This document shows positions 35,341 to 41,516 of a DNA stretch of 52,648 bases, piece by piece. How positions within the stretch are numbered: the stretch's first letter is position 1; every line of letters starts with the position of its first letter. This DNA comes from an uncultured Fimbriimonadaceae bacterium (GTDB lineage: Bacteria; Armatimonadota; Fimbriimonadia; Fimbriimonadales; Fimbriimonadaceae). The stretch spans positions 1 through 52,648 of the forward strand of contig CALGMO010000061.1 of the NCBI GenBank assembly GCA_937961665.1, read 5' to 3'. The notes below the pieces were generated by a model that worked only from the letters and a program-made list of their open reading frames with translations, was not told the origin of the DNA and did no database searches. The position numbers and the translations under genes are program-made.

Positions 35341-35375
35341 CGCCGCGCGATTTGCGCGGCAAAGCTGGAAACCTG

Positions 35376-35384
35376 TGATACACT
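35376..35384 (+). promoter_or_regulatory. Extended -10 promoter of the lipoprotein-pseudopilin unit
   Basis: TGA followed by TACACT forms an extended -10 (TGn-TACACT). The -35 at 17 bp (GCGGCA) is poor. The predicted start of transcription falls inside the operator just downstream. Confidence 0.5.
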
Positions 35385-35388
35385 GGAT

Positions 35389-35414
35389 GCGGAACCTCTC
35401 TATAGAGGTTCCGC
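35389..35414. promoter_or_regulatory. Operator: perfect 11-bp inverted repeat
   Basis: GCGGAACCTCT, 4-nt spacer CTAT, then AGAGGTTCCGC, with no mismatch in the arms. It sits directly after the -10 and before the start codon of the small lipoprotein, so a bound repressor would block initiation. The adjacent GntR-LacI gene is the likely binder. As RNA it could also form a hairpin. Confidence 0.7.
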
Positions 35415-35429
35415 AGAGTGGAGGTGTAC

Positions 35430-35663
35430 GTGGCGAAGCGTGTTGGTCTAGCCTTGGCGTTGCTGTTGGCCGCATTCGGGTGCGAGCGCGACACGAACGT
35501 GATCACTCCCGAGGCTGTCGAGCAGGCGAACAAGCATCGCATCGAGGTCATCGACAAGGATCCGAACATGACCCCCGAGCAGAAGCAGAAGATGAAGCAG
35601 ATGCTCGGGCTCGTCCCCGGCGGCCGGAGGCCCAGCCGAGGTCCGGACAGCGGCACCCGGTAG
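35430..35663 (+). CDS. Small lipoprotein of unknown function
   Basis: 77 residues from GTG 35430, chosen because GGAGG lies 6 nt before it; GTGs at 35418 and 35424 are closer to or upstream of that SD. The signal is [17 protein letters not shown] with the lipobox Cys at 18, so the mature protein would be about 60 residues. It contains [26 protein letters not shown], a charged helix followed by a Gly/Arg/Pro-rich tail. I do not recognise a family. It lies between a perfect operator and a pseudopilin gene 38 nt downstream, and is probably co-transcribed with the latter. Confidence 0.65.
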
Positions 35664-35701
35664 GCCTCCCTCCGTGCACCCAACCATCGAGGAGCATCCC
35701 A

Positions 35702-36640
35702 ATGAAGCATGAACCCATCGCGTCCCGAAGCCGAGGCGCATTCACCCTGATCGAGCTGCTGGTGGTGATCGCCATCATCGCCATCCTGGCCGGCATCCTC
35801 TTCCCCGTCTTCGCTCAGGCGAAGGAGGCGGCCAAGAAGACCCAGTCGCTGAGCAACGTCAAGCAGCTGGGCCTGGGCATCATCCAGTACATGGGGGACT
35901 ACGACGACACCTTCCCCATGTCCGAGTACAACCGAGGGAACCACTACGTCTCCTACGCCACCGAGATCTTTCCGTACGTGAAGAACGGCGACCAGTGGAC
36001 CTCGCCCGCCGGTGTGAAGATGGCGCTCGCGTCCGACGGCATCTTCCGCAGTCCGGGGAACCCGATTCCGCGCCGCGCCGGCCCCAACTCGGGGCAGTTC
36101 TCCTACGGCGTGCACATGTCGCTGTTCGTGAGCAACTACTATGAGGACTGGGCCGGGTTCCCCGGCATCGATACCCCGGCCAACCCCGGCGTTCCGGCAT
36201 CCGCGGTGGACGCGCCCGGAGACAAGGTCATGATGATGGAGAAGGGCCTGAACGACCCCGGCGCGGGTTGGAACTACCCGTTCTTCCATGACTGGCAGGC
36301 CATGTGGGTCGGGCGCATCTGCACCGTGCCCGGAGACCCCTCCACCGTGTTCAGGGACGGGGTCGACGCCTACACGCCGGGCAGCGAGGTGTACACGCCC
36401 TACTTCGACAACGACTGCCCGGCGGACTGGTCCGGCGGTTGGGAGTGCGCCGCGCACGCCCGGTACAGGTTCGCCAAGACCAGCCCCATGGTCTTCGTCG
36501 ACGGGCACGCGACGCCGATGAAGAAGGGCGCCATCAAGTGGTTCCAGAACATCTGGGTCGACCGGCGCAACATCAACCACTACAGTTGGTACTACGACTA
36601 CCTCAACGGTAGCGGCTGGGGATTCCCCGGAATCCACTGA
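35702..36640 (+). CDS. Pseudopilin-like protein (prepilin N-terminus, H-X9-DG type)
   Basis: 312 residues. The prepilin peptidase site reads RGA then [16 protein letters not shown], with Ala rather than Gly at -1 and Glu at +5. The hydrophobic helix is followed by [23 protein letters not shown], then a large extracellular domain with Asn/Asp-rich loops and Cys pairs. The C-terminus has [14 protein letters not shown], the usual motif of this family in Planctomycetes and Armatimonadetes. It could be displayed on a type II secretion/type IV pilus-like system. GAGGAG precedes ATG 35702. A strong hairpin follows the stop. Confidence 0.88.
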
Positions 36641-36711: not shown

Positions 36712-37482
36712 TCAGTCGCAGACCCAGTACCAGGTGTCCTCCCAGGGCTCCGGGTTGCCCGTCGGCTCACCCGACTTCCTGCCCTCGGGATTCACCCGCG
36801 TCTCGTCGAACTGGCCGGCGCTCGTCAGGAACTTGGCGTGCCCGTCGGAGAAGATCACGGTGCCTCCCGTCGAGCTCCACTGCCGGAAGTAGTTGTACGG
36901 CGGGTCGCAGTCATAGCCGTACCGCAGGCAGGTGGTGTCGAACTTCCGCGAGAAGAACGGGAACATCTCCAGCCGGATCTGTCTCGACTCCGCGGGATAC
37001 TCCACCATCCCGTCGGTGACCGTCCAGCCGTAGCTGTACAGCTCGTTGTTCTGGGACGACTCCCCAGGGACGACGCTGAACAGGCACTTGGTGAAGCGGT
37101 ACGAGCTTCCGTAGGCCTTCCAGTAGGTGTCCGCACCGGGAACGTCCTGCGACGTGTACGGGCCCCCCGCATCCAGCGGACTGCGGAAGATGTCCTTCGC
37201 TCCGCTGTAGGCCAGGAGCAGCACCTCGACGCCCTTGTGCCCCGGCTGTCCGGCGGGCGGCTGGCTGTTGTACGCGTAGAAGATCGGCATCGTGTCGTCG
37301 TTGTCGGCGACGTACATCCTCAGCGCCATCCCGATCTGCCGGCCGTTGCTCAGGCAGGCCGTGTTCTTGGCGGCCTCCTTCGCGCGGGCGAAGACGGGGA
37401 ACAGGATGGCGGCGAGGATCGCCACGATGGCGATCACGACGAGCAGCTCGATCAGCGTGAAGCCGAATCGGTGTCCTCTCAT
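36712..37482 (-). CDS. Pseudopilin-like protein under a TPP riboswitch
   Basis: 256 residues. The processing site is RFG then [16 protein letters not shown] (Gly at -1, Glu at +5), followed by [39 protein letters not shown], the standard beginning of this family. The C-terminus has [23 protein letters not shown] precedes ATG 37482. It is related in plan to the pseudopilin at 35702 but not closely alike. It is the only gene between a TPP riboswitch and a terminator, so it appears to be a monocistronic TPP-controlled gene. No thiamine-binding domain can be recognised by eye. Confidence 0.88.
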
Positions 37483-37673: not shown

Positions 37674-38354
37674 TCAGGACCCGATCGGCCGACGACGGAT
37701 CTCGGCCCAGGACCGGGGATACCGACGAGGCGTCGCCGCAACCTTGCGGTACACCGGAAAGACCCTCGCCGCGCCCGACGGCGCGAGCTCCGTCTCCCAG
37801 ACCTCCGCGAGCTCCAGGCCGAGCTCGCCGCAGGGGCAGTCGCGGATCGCCCCGAGGTCGCTCGCCGTGCGCATCGGCACCACGATCCCGCCCACGGCGC
37901 AGGCCGGCGCGCTGAGCTCCAGCTGCACCGCCAGGGGAGCCACCGCCCGGCCGGTCACCAGCCCAAAGCGCTCCCGGACGCCCCAAGTTTCTGCCCGGTC
38001 GCAGACCGGCTTGACGTTCGCCGGCCGGTGCCTCGCCAGAAAGCCGATCATCTTGCCGGAGGAGTCCAGTCCGACCCAAGAGGAGTCCGGCCGCGCGATC
38101 GCCAGAGGCACGCACGGGAAGCCGGGCCCGCAGCCGATGTCCAGAGCCTCGGCGCCCTCCGGCACTCGGGAGTGGATCAGCATGGAGTCCAGAAAGTGCC
38201 GGACCCAGCACTCCTCGCGCGGAACGCGGGTCAGGTTGCGGACCGCGCCCTCGCGGTACAGAGCCTCCTCGAAGCGCTCAAGGGCGTCCAACTGGCCGTC
38301 GTCGAGCGACAGACCGATCCGCCGGCACTCCTCCGCAAGCCGCTCCCGATCCAC
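37674..38354 (-). CDS. rsmG: 16S rRNA (guanine527-N7)-methyltransferase
   Basis: 226 residues from GTG 38354 (VDRERLAEECRRIGL). SAM-dependent methylation of 16S rRNA. EALDIGCGPGFPCVPLAIARPDSSWVGLDSSGKMIGFL is motif I and following, and GRAVAPLAVQLELSAPAC corresponds to the substrate loop. The frame is open farther upstream to an ATG at 38414, but that would run through the divergent sigma-factor promoter region. TAGAGT lies 8 nt before the GTG and there is no SD. Confidence 0.88.
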   Translation of the reverse strand: MDRERLAEECRRIGLSLDDGQLDALERFEEALYREGAVRNLTRVPREECWVRHFLDSMLIHSRVPEGAEALDIGCGPGFPCVPLAIARPDSSWVGLDSSGKMIGFLARHRPANVKPVCDRAETWGVRERFGLVTGRAVAPLAVQLELSAPACAVGGIVVPMRTASDLGAIRDCPCGELGLELAEVWETELAPSGAARVFPVYRKVAATPRRYPRSWAEIRRRPIGS

Positions 38355-38362
38355 GAACCCGC

Positions 38363-38368
38363 ACTCTA
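38363..38368 (-). promoter_or_regulatory. -10-like element of leaderless type (rsmG)
   Basis: TAGAGT, 8 nt, then GTG at 38354; no SD. Confidence 0.4.
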
Positions 38369-38379
38369 CTCCATTCTTG

Positions 38380-38414
38380 TACAGTGAGTGAACGATCGTG
38401 CCCGTCGAGGGCAC
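38380..38414 (+). promoter_or_regulatory. Promoter and leader repeat of the ECF sigma operon
   Basis: TACAGT (38380-38385) is a -10-like element about 48 nt before ATG 38433. GTGCCC-GTCGA-GGGCAC (38398-38414) is a perfect 6-bp inverted repeat in the leader. The gene itself has GAGAGG as SD. Confidence 0.4.
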
Positions 38415-38432
38415 TCACAGGTTGAGAGGACA

Positions 38433-38942
38433 ATGGACCCCCTCGTGGAGCGAGCGAAGAGAGGCGACCGGGAAGCAACGGCCGAGCTGGTGCGGCGGAG
38501 TTACGACGCCGTGTACCGGTTCTGCGCGCGGCGAGTGGGAACGGAGTCGGCAAAGGACGTGGCGCAAGAGACGTTCCTGACGGCGTGCCGCTCGCTGCGG
38601 CGGTACGAAGGCCGCTCTTCCTTCGAGGTCTGGCTGTTCGGGATTGCACACAACCTCTGCCGCAAGGCCAAGCGTTCCCCGACGCCCGTGAGCCCCACCG
38701 ACGCCTGGCGATGCGAGCCTACGACGGAAGAGTCCTGGCTCGACCGGCGGGCGCTGGTGGAGGCTCTCGGCAGCCTCAGCGGCGAGCACCTCGAGGTGGT
38801 CCTGCTCCACGAGGTGGAGGGACTCACCTACGAGGAGGCGGCGCAGGTTCTCGGCGTCCCGGCCGGAACCGTGAAGAGCCGCCTCCACCACGCCTTCGCC
38901 AAGCTGAGAGCCTCCCTCCAAGCGCAGGGGGTGACCCGATGA
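38433..38942 (+). CDS. ECF-type RNA polymerase sigma factor
   Basis: 169 residues with only regions 2 and 4, hence ECF. Region 2 spans about 5-70 (AVYRFCARRVG, DVAQETFLTACRSLRRYEGRSSFEVWLFGIAHNLCR) and region 4 about 107-160 (ALGSLSGEHLEVVLLHEVEGLTYEEAAQVLGVPAGTVKSRLHHA). Its stop overlaps the start of the anti-sigma-like gene (ATGA), the usual arrangement of an ECF factor and its inhibitor. It is divergent from rsmG. Release by a site-2 protease such as the RseP at 27260 is possible but unproven. Confidence 0.92.
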   Translation: MDPLVERAKRGDREATAELVRRSYDAVYRFCARRVGTESAKDVAQETFLTACRSLRRYEGRSSFEVWLFGIAHNLCRKAKRSPTPVSPTDAWRCEPTTEESWLDRRALVEALGSLSGEHLEVVLLHEVEGLTYEEAAQVLGVPAGTVKSRLHHAFAKLRASLQAQGVTR

Positions 38943-40042
38943 ACGTGCGAGAGAACCTCAAGGCGTTCCTGGACGGCGAGCTGCCCGAGGACCAGGCGGC
39001 CGAGGTGCGGCGGGCGCTGGAACAGGACGCGACGCTTCGACAGGAGCTGGAAGACATGAGAATGCTGGGACTCGAAATCCGCAAGGCGGCGGCCCATCCC
39101 GATCCCGTCGGCGTGGAGGAGGCGATCGGCCGCATCGCCACCCCCGTCCGGCCGTGGGTCCGCAGACCGATGCTCGCGCTCTCGGGCATCGCCGCGCTGG
39201 CGCTTCTCATCGCGATGGTCGGCCTCCTCAACCGAGCCCGAGGAGACACCCCAGCGGCCGAAAGCGCCGCCGGCGCCGACCTCGCGGTGAAGTCCTTTGC
39301 GCCGATGGCCGAGTCGTCGGTCGGAGCGCCGGGACGCGCGGGAGAGGAGATCGCGGCCTACGGCGCGGCCGGGGTGTTCCCCGAGCGCATGGTGGTCCGA
39401 ACGGCGGACATCCGCCTGAAGGCCGACGACGCGGCCGCTGCCATGCAGAAGGCGATCGATCTTGCCAAGAGCCTCGGCGGCTATGCGGCCGCCAGCGGCA
39501 TCAGCCGCGAGAACGAGCGATCGGCCCCCGTGGGCACCGCCACGCTCCGAGTCCCCGAGAGAAGCTTCGACCGCGCCCTCGACCAGCTGCGGGCGCTCGG
39601 AGAGGTTCTCTCGGAGAACTCGAACAGCGACGACGTCACCCTGCAGCACGCCGACGTGTCCGCCCGCTTGAAGGTGCTGCGCGCCGAGGAGCAGCAGTAC
39701 GTCACTCTCCTGGGCGCCGCCAAGACGATCGGGCAGGTGCTGCAGGTTCGAGAGAGACTGAACCAGGTCCGCCAGGAGATCGAGAGCCTGGACGCCCAGC
39801 GCAGGACGCTCGAGCGGCAGGCGGCGCTGTCCACGATCACCGCCACCTTCATCCAGCGGGCGGCGGTCGGCCAGCCGGAGCCGAGCCAGGGCTGGGCCGC
39901 AGAGGCGTGGGCAAGCGCCGTCAACGGCTTGGCCGCAGCCTTCCGTTGGCTCGGCTCGGCCGCCATCTTCCTGTTCGTGTATTCCCCGCTGTGGCTGCCC
40001 GTTCTTCTTCTGGCGGCCTACCTCGCTCGCCGGCTGAAGTAA
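38939..40042 (+). CDS. Anti-sigma factor-like / DUF4349 fusion protein
   Basis: 367 residues. The first 60 (NLKAFLDGELPEDQAAEVRRALEQD) resemble the anti-sigma domain that holds ECF factors, without the zinc-binding HxxxCxxC. A transmembrane helix at about 80-97 follows, then a DUF4349 domain (about 145-330) with a coiled coil at LKVLRAEEQQYVTLLGAAKTIGQVLQVRERLNQVRQEIESLDAQ, and a C-terminal hydrophobic segment. Translation is coupled to the sigma gene. Topology would place DUF4349 outside as a possible sensor. Its DUF4349 half is clearly paralogous to the next gene. Confidence 0.78.
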   Translation: MNVRENLKAFLDGELPEDQAAEVRRALEQDATLRQELEDMRMLGLEIRKAAAHPDPVGVEEAIGRIATPVRPWVRRPMLALSGIAALALLIAMVGLLNRARGDTPAAESAAGADLAVKSFAPMAESSVGAPGRAGEEIAAYGAAGVFPERMVVRTADIRLKADDAAAAMQKAIDLAKSLGGYAAASGISRENERSAPVGTATLRVPERSFDRALDQLRALGEVLSENSNSDDVTLQHADVSARLKVLRAEEQQYVTLLGAAKTIGQVLQVRERLNQVRQEIESLDAQRRTLERQAALSTITATFIQRAAVGQPEPSQGWAAEAWASAVNGLAAAFRWLGSAAIFLFVYSPLWLPVLLLAAYLARRLK

Positions 40043-40122
40043 GCTGGGGGCAACAGGCGGGTGCTGGGTTGGCCTCCGGCCTCACGGGGGCCTTCCCCAG
40101 CCATCCTCCCCAGGGGGCGATC

Positions 40123-40965
40123 GTGGCGCGATTCGTGTTGTTCGCTGTCTTGGCGGCCCTGCTCCTCGGGTGCGGGGGCGGAGGCCAGAGCGGCGCGGGC
40201 CCGGCGGTCCCGCCCCCAGCCGATCGGCCGGCGACGGATTCCGGCGAGATCCAGCGGGTGGTGGTCCGCCGGGCGAACCTCCGCGTGCGCGTCGAGAGCG
40301 CCGAAAGGGCCCTTCTGGCCGCGCGCAGCCTGGCGACGGAGATGGGCGGGTACGTCGAGTCGGGCGGGGTGTTCAACCAAGAGACCGATACGCCTTCCGC
40401 CCAGGCGGTTCTGCGAATTCCCGAGGCCCGCTTCGACGAGGCCATCGACCGGCTGAAGGCGCTCGGAACGCGAGAGTTCGAGAGGATCGAGAGCGAGGAC
40501 GTCACGCTCAAGGCCACCGACCTCGACGCCCGCCTGACGGTGCTCCGGGCCGAAGAGCGGCAGTACCTCGAGCTGCTCTCCAAGGCTCGGACGGTGGACG
40601 AGGTGCTCAGCGTCCGCCAGCGCCTCGGCGAGGTTCGGCAGCAGGTCGAAAGCCTGGACGCCCAACGGAAGGTCCTGCGCAACCAAGCCTCCTTCTCCAC
40701 GATCGACGTCGAGTTCGTGCAGCGGATCGGCTTCGGGATGGGCGGGCGCAGCGGCTGGATCGCCGAGGCGTGGTTCGGAGCTTGGAACGCGCTGTTCGCG
40801 GTTCTCCGGTGGCTCGTGCAGCTGGCCGTCGTGGTGGTGGTCTTCTCGGTGATCTGGGTGCCGATCGTGCTGCTGGTTCGCTGGTCGAGAAGCAGGCCCG
40901 GCCGGCGTCCCCCGCCTCCGCCGCCGGACTCTGCTCCCGATCCAGGTGACTCCGCCGAGCAGTAA
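40123..40965 (+). CDS. DUF4349 lipoprotein
   Basis: 280 residues from GTG 40123, preceded by AGGGGG at 5 nt. The signal is ARFVLFAVLAALLLGC, lipobox Cys at 17. The DUF4349 region is parallel to that of the anti-sigma fusion: RIPEARFDEAIDRLKALG against RVPERSFDRALDQLRALG, and VRQRLGEVRQQVESLDAQRK against VRERLNQVRQEIESLDAQRR. A transmembrane segment near 230-255 and a Pro/Arg-rich tail follow. So it is a tandem duplicate whose anti-sigma part has been replaced by a lipid anchor. Function unknown. Confidence 0.82.
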   Translation: MARFVLFAVLAALLLGCGGGGQSGAGPAVPPPADRPATDSGEIQRVVVRRANLRVRVESAERALLAARSLATEMGGYVESGGVFNQETDTPSAQAVLRIPEARFDEAIDRLKALGTREFERIESEDVTLKATDLDARLTVLRAEERQYLELLSKARTVDEVLSVRQRLGEVRQQVESLDAQRKVLRNQASFSTIDVEFVQRIGFGMGGRSGWIAEAWFGAWNALFAVLRWLVQLAVVVVVFSVIWVPIVLLVRWSRSRPGRRPPPPPPDSAPDPGDSAEQ

Positions 40966-40968
40966 ACT
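40963..40968 (+). promoter_or_regulatory. -10-like element of leaderless type (PAP2 gene), may be chance
   Basis: TAAACT, 8 nt, then TTG at 40977. Its TAA is the stop codon of the preceding gene. Confidence 0.3.
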
Positions 40969-40976
40969 GGCTGCCG

Positions 40977-41516
40977 TTGCTCGAGGCCGTCCGCGACGCC
41001 GACTTCGCTCTGCTCCGCGCCATCCATCTGGGGTGGCGCTCGTCCCTGCTCGACCCGCTCTTCTGGGTTCTGAGCTACACGGGCCTGGGTCAGATCCAGT
41101 TGGCCGCGCTCGCCCTGGCGGCGTGGAGGAGGCCCGCGGTCAGGCCCAGACTGCCGTACCTGCTGGGAGCCTTCGCAGCCTCGGGGATCCTCAACTCGGT
41201 CCTCAAGGATCTGTTCGATCGCGAACGCCCCAGCCTCGTGGCATGGACCCTCCCGCAGGAGCCGTTCCGGTTCGGCAGCTTCCCGAGCGGGCACACGGTG
41301 ACCAGCTTCGCCCTCGCCGTCTGCGCCGCGCTGATGCTCCGCGACCGACGGGGCTGGCCGCTGATCCTGTGGGCGGTCGGCGTGGCTCTCAGCAGGGTCT
41401 ATCGGGGGGTGCACTGGCCGAGCGACGTTCTGGCCGCTGCGGCGCTCGGATCCGTCGTGGGCGCGGCGTGCGCTTGGCTCGCCGAGGTGCGGCTCGCCCG
41501 CAGGGCCGCTACCTGA
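40977..41516 (+). CDS. PAP2 superfamily phosphatase
   Basis: 179 residues, integral membrane, five to six helices. All three PAP2 motifs are seen: KDLFDRERPS (K-x6-RP), GSFPSGHT (PSGH) and SRVYRGVHWPSD (SR-x5-H-x3-D). Typical substrates are undecaprenyl diphosphate or phosphatidic acid. TTG start, no SD, 11 nt after the DUF4349 lipoprotein. Membership in the sigma operon suggests an envelope-stress link, which is inference. It is convergent with ilvA. Confidence 0.85.
   Translation: MLEAVRDADFALLRAIHLGWRSSLLDPLFWVLSYTGLGQIQLAALALAAWRRPAVRPRLPYLLGAFAASGILNSVLKDLFDRERPSLVAWTLPQEPFRFGSFPSGHTVTSFALAVCAALMLRDRRGWPLILWAVGVALSRVYRGVHWPSDVLAAAALGSVVGAACAWLAEVRLARRAAT

Follow-up and report, generated by a model that had tools for sequence, protein, structure and literature searches.

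The window analysed here is a stretch of 52,648 nucleotides (contig CALGMO010000061.1, positions 1 to 52,648, assembly GCA_937961665.1) from an uncultured Fimbriimonadaceae bacterium of the phylum Armatimonadota. The nearest record that carries a name is, at 83% identity, that of Armatimonadetes bacterium UBA8783. Between positions 38387 and 41516, promoter element included, four genes lie on the forward strand: an extracytoplasmic function (ECF) sigma factor, an anti-sigma factor fused to a DUF4349 domain, a DUF4349 lipoprotein and a PAP2 phosphatase. We suggest that they probably form an autoregulated envelope switch, in which the ECF sigma factor may be subject to homeostatic feedback through DUF4349.

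The sigma factor (38433-38942, 169 residues) consists of the sigma2 and sigma4 regions only. Both are recognised by Pfam above the cut-offs, Sigma70_r2 with 52.8 bits at residues 19-82 and Sigma70_r4_2 with 55.4 bits at residues 106-158, and the protein matches TIGR02937 of NCBIfam with 76.2 bits. Its stop overlaps the open reading frame of the fusion protein by 4 nucleotides, and the sigma gene thus adjoins the gene of its putative cognate anti-sigma factor. The fusion (38939-40042, forward strand, 367 residues) is predicted, from Pfam, hydropathy and an AlphaFold2 model, to have a cytoplasmic helical part, a first transmembrane helix, an outer DUF4349 domain and a C-terminal hydrophobic helix. 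Its DUF4349 domain (39386-40021) matches PF14257 with 170.7 bits (E-value 1.6e-50, searched in the window's genome), and that of the lipoprotein (40255-40884) with 168.7 bits (E-value 8.3e-50), where the Pfam cut-off is 27.7. The two domains share 46% identity across 213 residues (E-value 1e-54), and their genes are the only two DUF4349 genes detected in this genome. The preliminary description, which had named the four genes at these positions, the fusion through a membrane helix and the duplication of DUF4349, is borne out on these points by Pfam and hydropathy.

Upstream of the sigma gene lies an ECF-type promoter element, AGTGAACG-N15-GGCACTCA (38387-38417, forward strand), with TGAAC as the -35 half, CACTCA as the -10 half and a matrix score of 21.1 without the spacer term. 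Fifteen bases separate it from the sigma start, and it holds the sole exact TGAAC-N18-CACTCA in the window's genome; the preliminary description had not noticed it. Within the family the consensus is TTTGAACG-N15-GACACTCA, found upstream of 44/44 sigma genes with a DUF4349 anti-sigma gene behind them; a spacer of 15 nucleotides was chosen in every one of the 44, with 9 to 18 allowed. The weakest of these sites scores 19.6 versus 17.3 for the best of 440 dinucleotide-shuffled upstream regions, the scoring matrix being built from the same 44 sites on which it is judged. We infer from this arrangement that the window sigma reads the element upstream of its own gene. Autoregulation of the operon, on which the preliminary description made its proposal depend, is a prediction that the presence of the element at all 44 sigma genes strongly implies.

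As early hallmarks of ECF systems, PMC8103513 lists a -35 box with AAC, a -10 box with CGT, and autoregulation, the definition having been narrowed in later versions. The -35 half, CGAAC or TGAAC in 44/44 sites, holds this AAC, and the -10 half CACTCA lacks the CGT. This departure from the usual ECF box would fit an explanation in which the conserved element is the binding site of another regulator, or is conserved by chance, and is not a promoter. However, the spacer is fixed in 44/44, the -35 half contains AAC and the element is placed just upstream of the sigma start. In addition, a related variant, GTGAACC(T/C)TTT...AACTAA, with the same spacing, stands at sigma-DUF4349 genes of other families in the phylum (L119, L121, L122, L116, L118, L117, L092, L106 and L097) and scores at least 27 at 9 of the 30 fusion loci outside the family, though with a matrix made from ten sites picked by eye and partly circular. 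We therefore consider a non-promoter origin of the element very improbable.

That the sigma factor may act beyond its own gene is suggested by scanning both strands of 83 family loci (1,713,736 positions, score threshold 13). Of the 61 sites obtained, 44 belong to sigma genes, 14 stand immediately in front of DUF4349 lipoprotein genes that are stand-alone and located elsewhere in the genome, and 3 are at other places. Counted by gene, the element is present at 14 of the 43 stand-alone DUF4349 genes and at 0/43 in the reverse-strand control. With spacers of 14-16 nucleotides, and the window's genus and one cut locus set aside, the counts are 15/39 and 1/39. Since the same promoter stands on unlinked stand-alone DUF4349 genes in relatives, the DUF4349 lipoprotein is best read as a target (output) of the sigma factor, and the brake on this factor, the anti-sigma, carries the same domain. 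Control of the lipoprotein by the sigma factor, the regulatory half of the proposed switch, is rated as very likely. The preliminary description had proposed the lipoprotein as the sensor or the ligand of the anti-sigma. A functional tie between DUF4349 lipoproteins and the sigma/anti-sigma pair is upheld by the common promoter on unlinked genes in relatives, but the lipoprotein looks like a sigma output and not like a dedicated sensor or ligand. A separate arrangement is seen at L156 (5777-7960), where two tandem stand-alone DUF4349 genes have the element in front (score 16.4) and there is no sigma gene on the retrieved stretch.

The exact pattern occurs across the family at 94 places in 52/85 genomes, against 14 for the reversed pattern. 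Sampled sites precede genes for VIT-vWA, ARPP-1, DUF4139/DUF4140, fasciclin, caspase-like and DUF2330 proteins, further ECF sigma genes and one family without a Pfam match. Among the 30 best Pfam-domain matches for VIT and the 30 best for DUF4139 (gene strand taken from the search tables), the element is upstream of 12 and 11, respectively, and it precedes 10/15 ARPP-1 genes; the reverse-strand control of these three sets gives 0/75 at score 12 with the 15-nucleotide spacer. The three groups were chosen after such genes had appeared behind the element in the discovery sample, and when the discovery genes are subtracted the counts become 9/27 for VIT, 8/13 for ARPP-1 and 10/29 for DUF4139. Allowing a spacer of 14 or 16 brings in, besides a few genes with lower scores, one VIT gene (score 24.8) and one DUF4349 gene (19.8), and the reverse control with spacers 14-16 at scores of at least 13 gives one of the 39 stand-alone DUF4349 genes and one of 30 DUF4139 genes. 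The family without a Pfam match was seen behind the element in five genomes (L250, L256, L261, L279, L286); it comprises proteins of about 160-200 residues with an N-terminal KPC..W..M.G....FC..C...VHNL-like motif, and the three that were scanned have no Pfam match. The caspase-like peptidase (L264, 1538-2482), the fasciclin protein (L245, 1573-2184) and the DUF2330 protein (L278, 2585-3553) were each found once.

These additional targets bear on a plainer explanation, in which the lipoprotein is just one of several envelope proteins made by the sigma factor and shares its domain with the brake by descent only, with no feedback. VIT-vWA, ARPP-1 and DUF4139 targets without DUF4349 carry the same promoter, as would be expected, and two sigma operons of the family have no recognisable DUF4349 in the anti-sigma. 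However, the outer domain of the anti-sigma is DUF4349 at 44 family loci, and in the window's genus, for which no VIT or ARPP-1 match was found, the lipoprotein gene is inside the operon. We rate this explanation as somewhat unlikely.

VIT and ARPP-1 matches are absent from the window's genome, its one DUF4139 match is weak, and the only site common to the three genomes of the genus is that of the operon. The circuit seems reduced to the operon in this genus.

DUF4349 is present in 88 of the 151 genomes in the phylum sample and in 79 of the 85 in the window's family. In 62 family genomes examined, a sigma-linked fusion and a stand-alone gene occur together in 24, the fusion is alone in 20 and the stand-alone gene in 17, and one genome is cut by a contig end. 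The tandem of fusion and lipoprotein is confined to the window's genus, where it is kept in 3/3 genomes and so looks like more than a chance arrangement. Two stand-alone copies in tandem are found in G171. Fimbriimonas ginsengisoli (G123) also belongs to the family. Its sigma operon and that of G168 have kept the promoter, with PAP2 directly after an anti-sigma without recognisable DUF4349. Anti-sigma genes of this kind, at L285 (945-2351) and L294 (926-2149), have the same promoter and the same sigma and PAP2 neighbours, and the L294 protein retains a helical hairpin-like end, as if its DUF4349 had decayed or been exchanged.

Several observations weigh against the proposed switch. One class of DUF4349 gene is present without the other in 37 of the 62 genomes. 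Outside the genus, 25/39 stand-alone genes score below 13 with the 15-nucleotide spacer, and 22/39 remain below 11 even when spacers of 14-16 are allowed. Outside the family, a matching element is found at only 2/73 stand-alone DUF4349 genes. The pairing of sigma factor and element follows from the position of the element upstream of the sigma gene, with a matrix trained on the same 44 sites. Finally, the lipoprotein gene of G123 keeps the promoter (score 19.2) though the anti-sigma of this genome has no recognisable DUF4349, and feedback through DUF4349 can therefore not be universal.

The cytoplasmic part of the anti-sigma is only weakly recognised, with zf-HC2 at 20.6 bits, below the cut-off of 22.2. 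Anti-sigma factors of the zf-HC2 type bind zinc through Cys and His ligands, and residues 1-50 of the window protein contain neither Cys nor His. The AlphaFold2 model and hydropathy give helices at residues 6-11, 17-29 and 31-52, followed by a hydrophobic helix at 78-100 (39170-39238), the first transmembrane helix, which is modelled at low confidence. With an N-terminal helical domain and a membrane span inside a sigma operon, the fusion qualifies as a membrane anti-sigma in the wide sense, and sigma binding is predicted.

The outer part is modelled better. The mean predicted local distance difference test score (pLDDT) of the anti-sigma is 72, and about 90 for the DUF4349 core. Residues 152-232 follow the order b-a-b-b-a-b with pLDDT near 90 and look ferredoxin-like, a common arrangement. 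Two model helices at residues 234-296 (39638-39826, pLDDT about 90) form a coiled-coil hairpin inside DUF4349. A fold search with the model gave no PDB match at an E-value of 0.001 or below, and its weaker matches were dominated by coiled-coil hairpins; when solved structures were searched by sequence, none matched.

Both DUF4349 proteins also contain a second, C-terminal hydrophobic helix that the preliminary description had overlooked. In the anti-sigma it covers residues 319-366 (39893-40036) and is a helix in the model; the hydropathy peaks over 19 residues are 2.13 for the anti-sigma and 3.13 for the lipoprotein, and membrane insertion is predicted. The lipoprotein gene (40123-40965, forward strand) likely starts with the GTG at 40123. 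A lipobox, with its Cys codon at 40171-40173, is present in 3/3 genomes of the genus, as LLGC in the window and LIGC in the other two members, and lipidation is predicted. Because the C-terminal hydrophobic helix is found in both proteins, the lipoprotein probably has an anchor at each end, in an arrangement that matches the outer half of the anti-sigma.

A direct contact between the two proteins was the proposal of the preliminary description. The lipoprotein would then bind the DUF4349 of the anti-sigma via the coiled coil and serve it as a co-sensor or ligand, in the way that RseB serves RseA. The tandem genes are kept in 3/3 genomes of the genus, the outer layout is shared and the two genes are co-regulated in relatives, all of which would agree with such a partnership. 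The coiled coil that the preliminary description saw in both proteins, VRERLNQVRQEIESLDAQR and VRQRLGEVRQQVESLDAQR, is indeed there. However, several hairpin residues are invariant also in DUF4349 proteins of Chloroflexi, beside whose genes no sigma factor was found. The coiled coil is an ordinary property of DUF4349 and does not link the two window proteins in any special way, so the shared sequence alone is no argument for contact. The fusion without the lipoprotein in 20/62 genomes and the lipoprotein without the fusion in 17/62 also argue against a dedicated pair. We regard direct binding of this kind as possible, with the balance of evidence rather against it.

The origin of the lipoprotein was addressed with trees of 117 and 85 DUF4349 domains, from which domains with fewer than 150 and 130 aligned residues, respectively, were dropped. 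L057 was left out of the 85-domain tree, and L057, L210 and L048 were left out of the second approximately unbiased (AU) test, because of long branches or a cut contig. Both trees put the lipoprotein next to the anti-sigma domain from the same genus, with support of 93 and 83 in the Shimodaira-Hasegawa-like approximate likelihood ratio test (SH-aLRT). The AU test does not reject a tree constrained to group it among the stand-alone lipoproteins (p-AU 0.33 in the first test and 0.64 in the second), and in the second test the constrained tree is better by 8.3 log units. The placement has modest support, and tandem duplication and recruitment of an old stand-alone gene into the operon are both possible origins.

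The last gene of the operon (40977-41516, forward strand) codes for a PAP2-type membrane lipid phosphatase of 179 residues, with a TTG start at about 40977. PAP2 phosphatases have a catalytic motif pattern in three parts, and the window protein, which matches PF01569 with 95.3 bits, has all three intact: KX6RP as KDLFDRERP, PSGH, and SRX5HX3D as SRVYRGVHWPSD. Its best NCBIfam model reaches 49.7, far below the cut-off of 250. PAP2 lies beside the pair in 5 of the 44 fusion loci, from four genera (the window, G211, G170, G189 and G199, where the gene is cut by the contig end), and the UBA8783 contig stops before a PAP2 gene could appear. From this distribution it looks like an old, often absent member of the unit.

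The preliminary description had connected the operon to envelope lipid stress. This rests on the PAP2 gene, which accompanies the pair in 5 of the 44 fusion loci and is also present in two sigma operons whose anti-sigma lacks DUF4349. In one version the signal would be a blocked recycling of undecaprenyl phosphate or a phospholipid imbalance, with PAP2 as the main effector and DUF4349 as an accessory. The intact catalytic motifs of PAP2 would be in line with this, as would its place beside the pair in those five loci and behind the anti-sigmas of G123 and G168. However, most family loci have no such PAP2 on the retrieved stretch, and the weak NCBIfam score gives the enzyme no specific assignment; we hold this version to be quite unlikely.

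Returning to the autoregulated switch, it could work as follows. The element at 38387-38417 would serve the sigma factor as the promoter of its own operon. The small helical domain of the brake would hold the sigma factor at the membrane, and the chain would cross the membrane and display DUF4349 outside, its last helix appearing to re-enter the membrane in the topology deduced here. The lipoprotein, as a product of the same sigma factor, would have the same outer layout, anchored by a lipid at one end and by a hydrophobic helix at the opposite one. With its outer DUF4349, the brake would sample the same envelope state or partner on which the lipoprotein acts, and once enough lipoprotein has been made the brake would be satisfied and the sigma factor held again. 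Under stress, the brake would be cut or opened and the sigma factor freed, presumably by proteolysis, and PAP2 would be co-made as an effector on envelope lipids. A shared partner, with the product closing the loop, is the most economical idea because the lipoprotein is a homologue of the brake's outer domain and is anchored in a similar way. It is a guess that the two domains recognise one another or a common ligand, and the feedback half of the mechanism is tentative, being possible but doubtful.

It can be speculated further that the brake measures the main product of the programme by homotypic exchange, its double-anchored DUF4349 forming assemblies like those of the lipoprotein and so counting its abundance in the membrane. 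In this extension, the sigma factor of the family would run an envelope programme of DUF4349 lipoproteins, VIT-vWA, ARPP-1 and DUF4139 proteins, which in the window's genus would have shrunk to one operon of sigma factor, brake, twin and lipid phosphatase. Taken as a whole, we find this extension unlikely.

The operon is flanked by a divergent RsmG-like gene and a convergent threonine dehydratase-like gene, both named by reading their translations. The RsmG-like gene (37674-38414, reverse strand) probably starts near 38354 and not at 38414, by comparison with G211, which would give an intergenic region of 78 bases containing the sigma promoter. Further upstream, two genes on opposite strands (35375-36640 and 36712-37482) code for proteins with type IV pilin-like N-termini.

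DUF4349 is widespread and without an assigned function, and the link to the sigma factor, the promoter element and the co-targets VIT-vWA, ARPP-1 and DUF4139 gives a concrete route to its job. In Fimbriimonas ginsengisoli the family includes a named strain whose genome is complete; its published chromosome has 5,231,762 bases, and the available text of PMC4072686 treats its sigma genes only by counting them. The accessible passages of the open-access literature naming DUF4349 assign it no role, and in the open-access literature we found no report of this circuit, nor of any studied Armatimonadetes sigma circuit. A described example is candidate 9 of Methylobacterium, a DUF4349 protein with a lipobox signal peptide and a hydrophobic C-tail, whose export was tested and whose function was not, in the part available of PMC10924467. 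The window lipoprotein has the same order of N-terminal lipobox, DUF4349 and hydrophobic C-tail. Unlike it, candidate 9 has no link to a sigma factor in that part of the account.

Among sigma circuits, two known systems are comparable. RpoE-RseA-RseB combines an ECF sigma factor, a membrane anti-sigma and an envelope partner under autoregulation, and RseB is not known to be a homologue of the outer part of RseA. The window likewise has an ECF sigma factor, a membrane anti-sigma and an envelope partner protein, and is predicted to be autoregulated. However, here the partner is homologous to the outer half of the anti-sigma, and DUF4349 is found only in the window system. RpoE-RseA-RseB of Escherichia coli is named in PMC8103513.

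The second system is SigI/RsgI of Clostridium thermocellum, in which the outer domains of the anti-sigmas (CBM, GH10, PA14) fit the enzymes induced by the sigma factors, and the SigI promoter is common to the sigma gene and unlinked targets, as given in PMC4711584. Like RsgI so described, the window anti-sigma would sit in the membrane, with a predicted sigma-binding part in the cytoplasm, a stretch that crosses the membrane and a domain outside, and the promoter is on the sigma gene and, in relatives, on unlinked targets. However, it is not an RsgI by sequence, the RsgI N-terminal domain being absent from its Pfam and NCBIfam matches, and its outer domain is DUF4349 and no sugar binder. Unlike RsgI, the chain is closed by a second hydrophobic helix, and the twin of the outer domain is a membrane lipoprotein, encoded in the operon in this genus. 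We suggest that the fusion would work like the RsgI anti-sigmas while standing outside that family. If the brake does read a homologue of its own target, Armatimonadota would have the RsgI logic in a membrane version.

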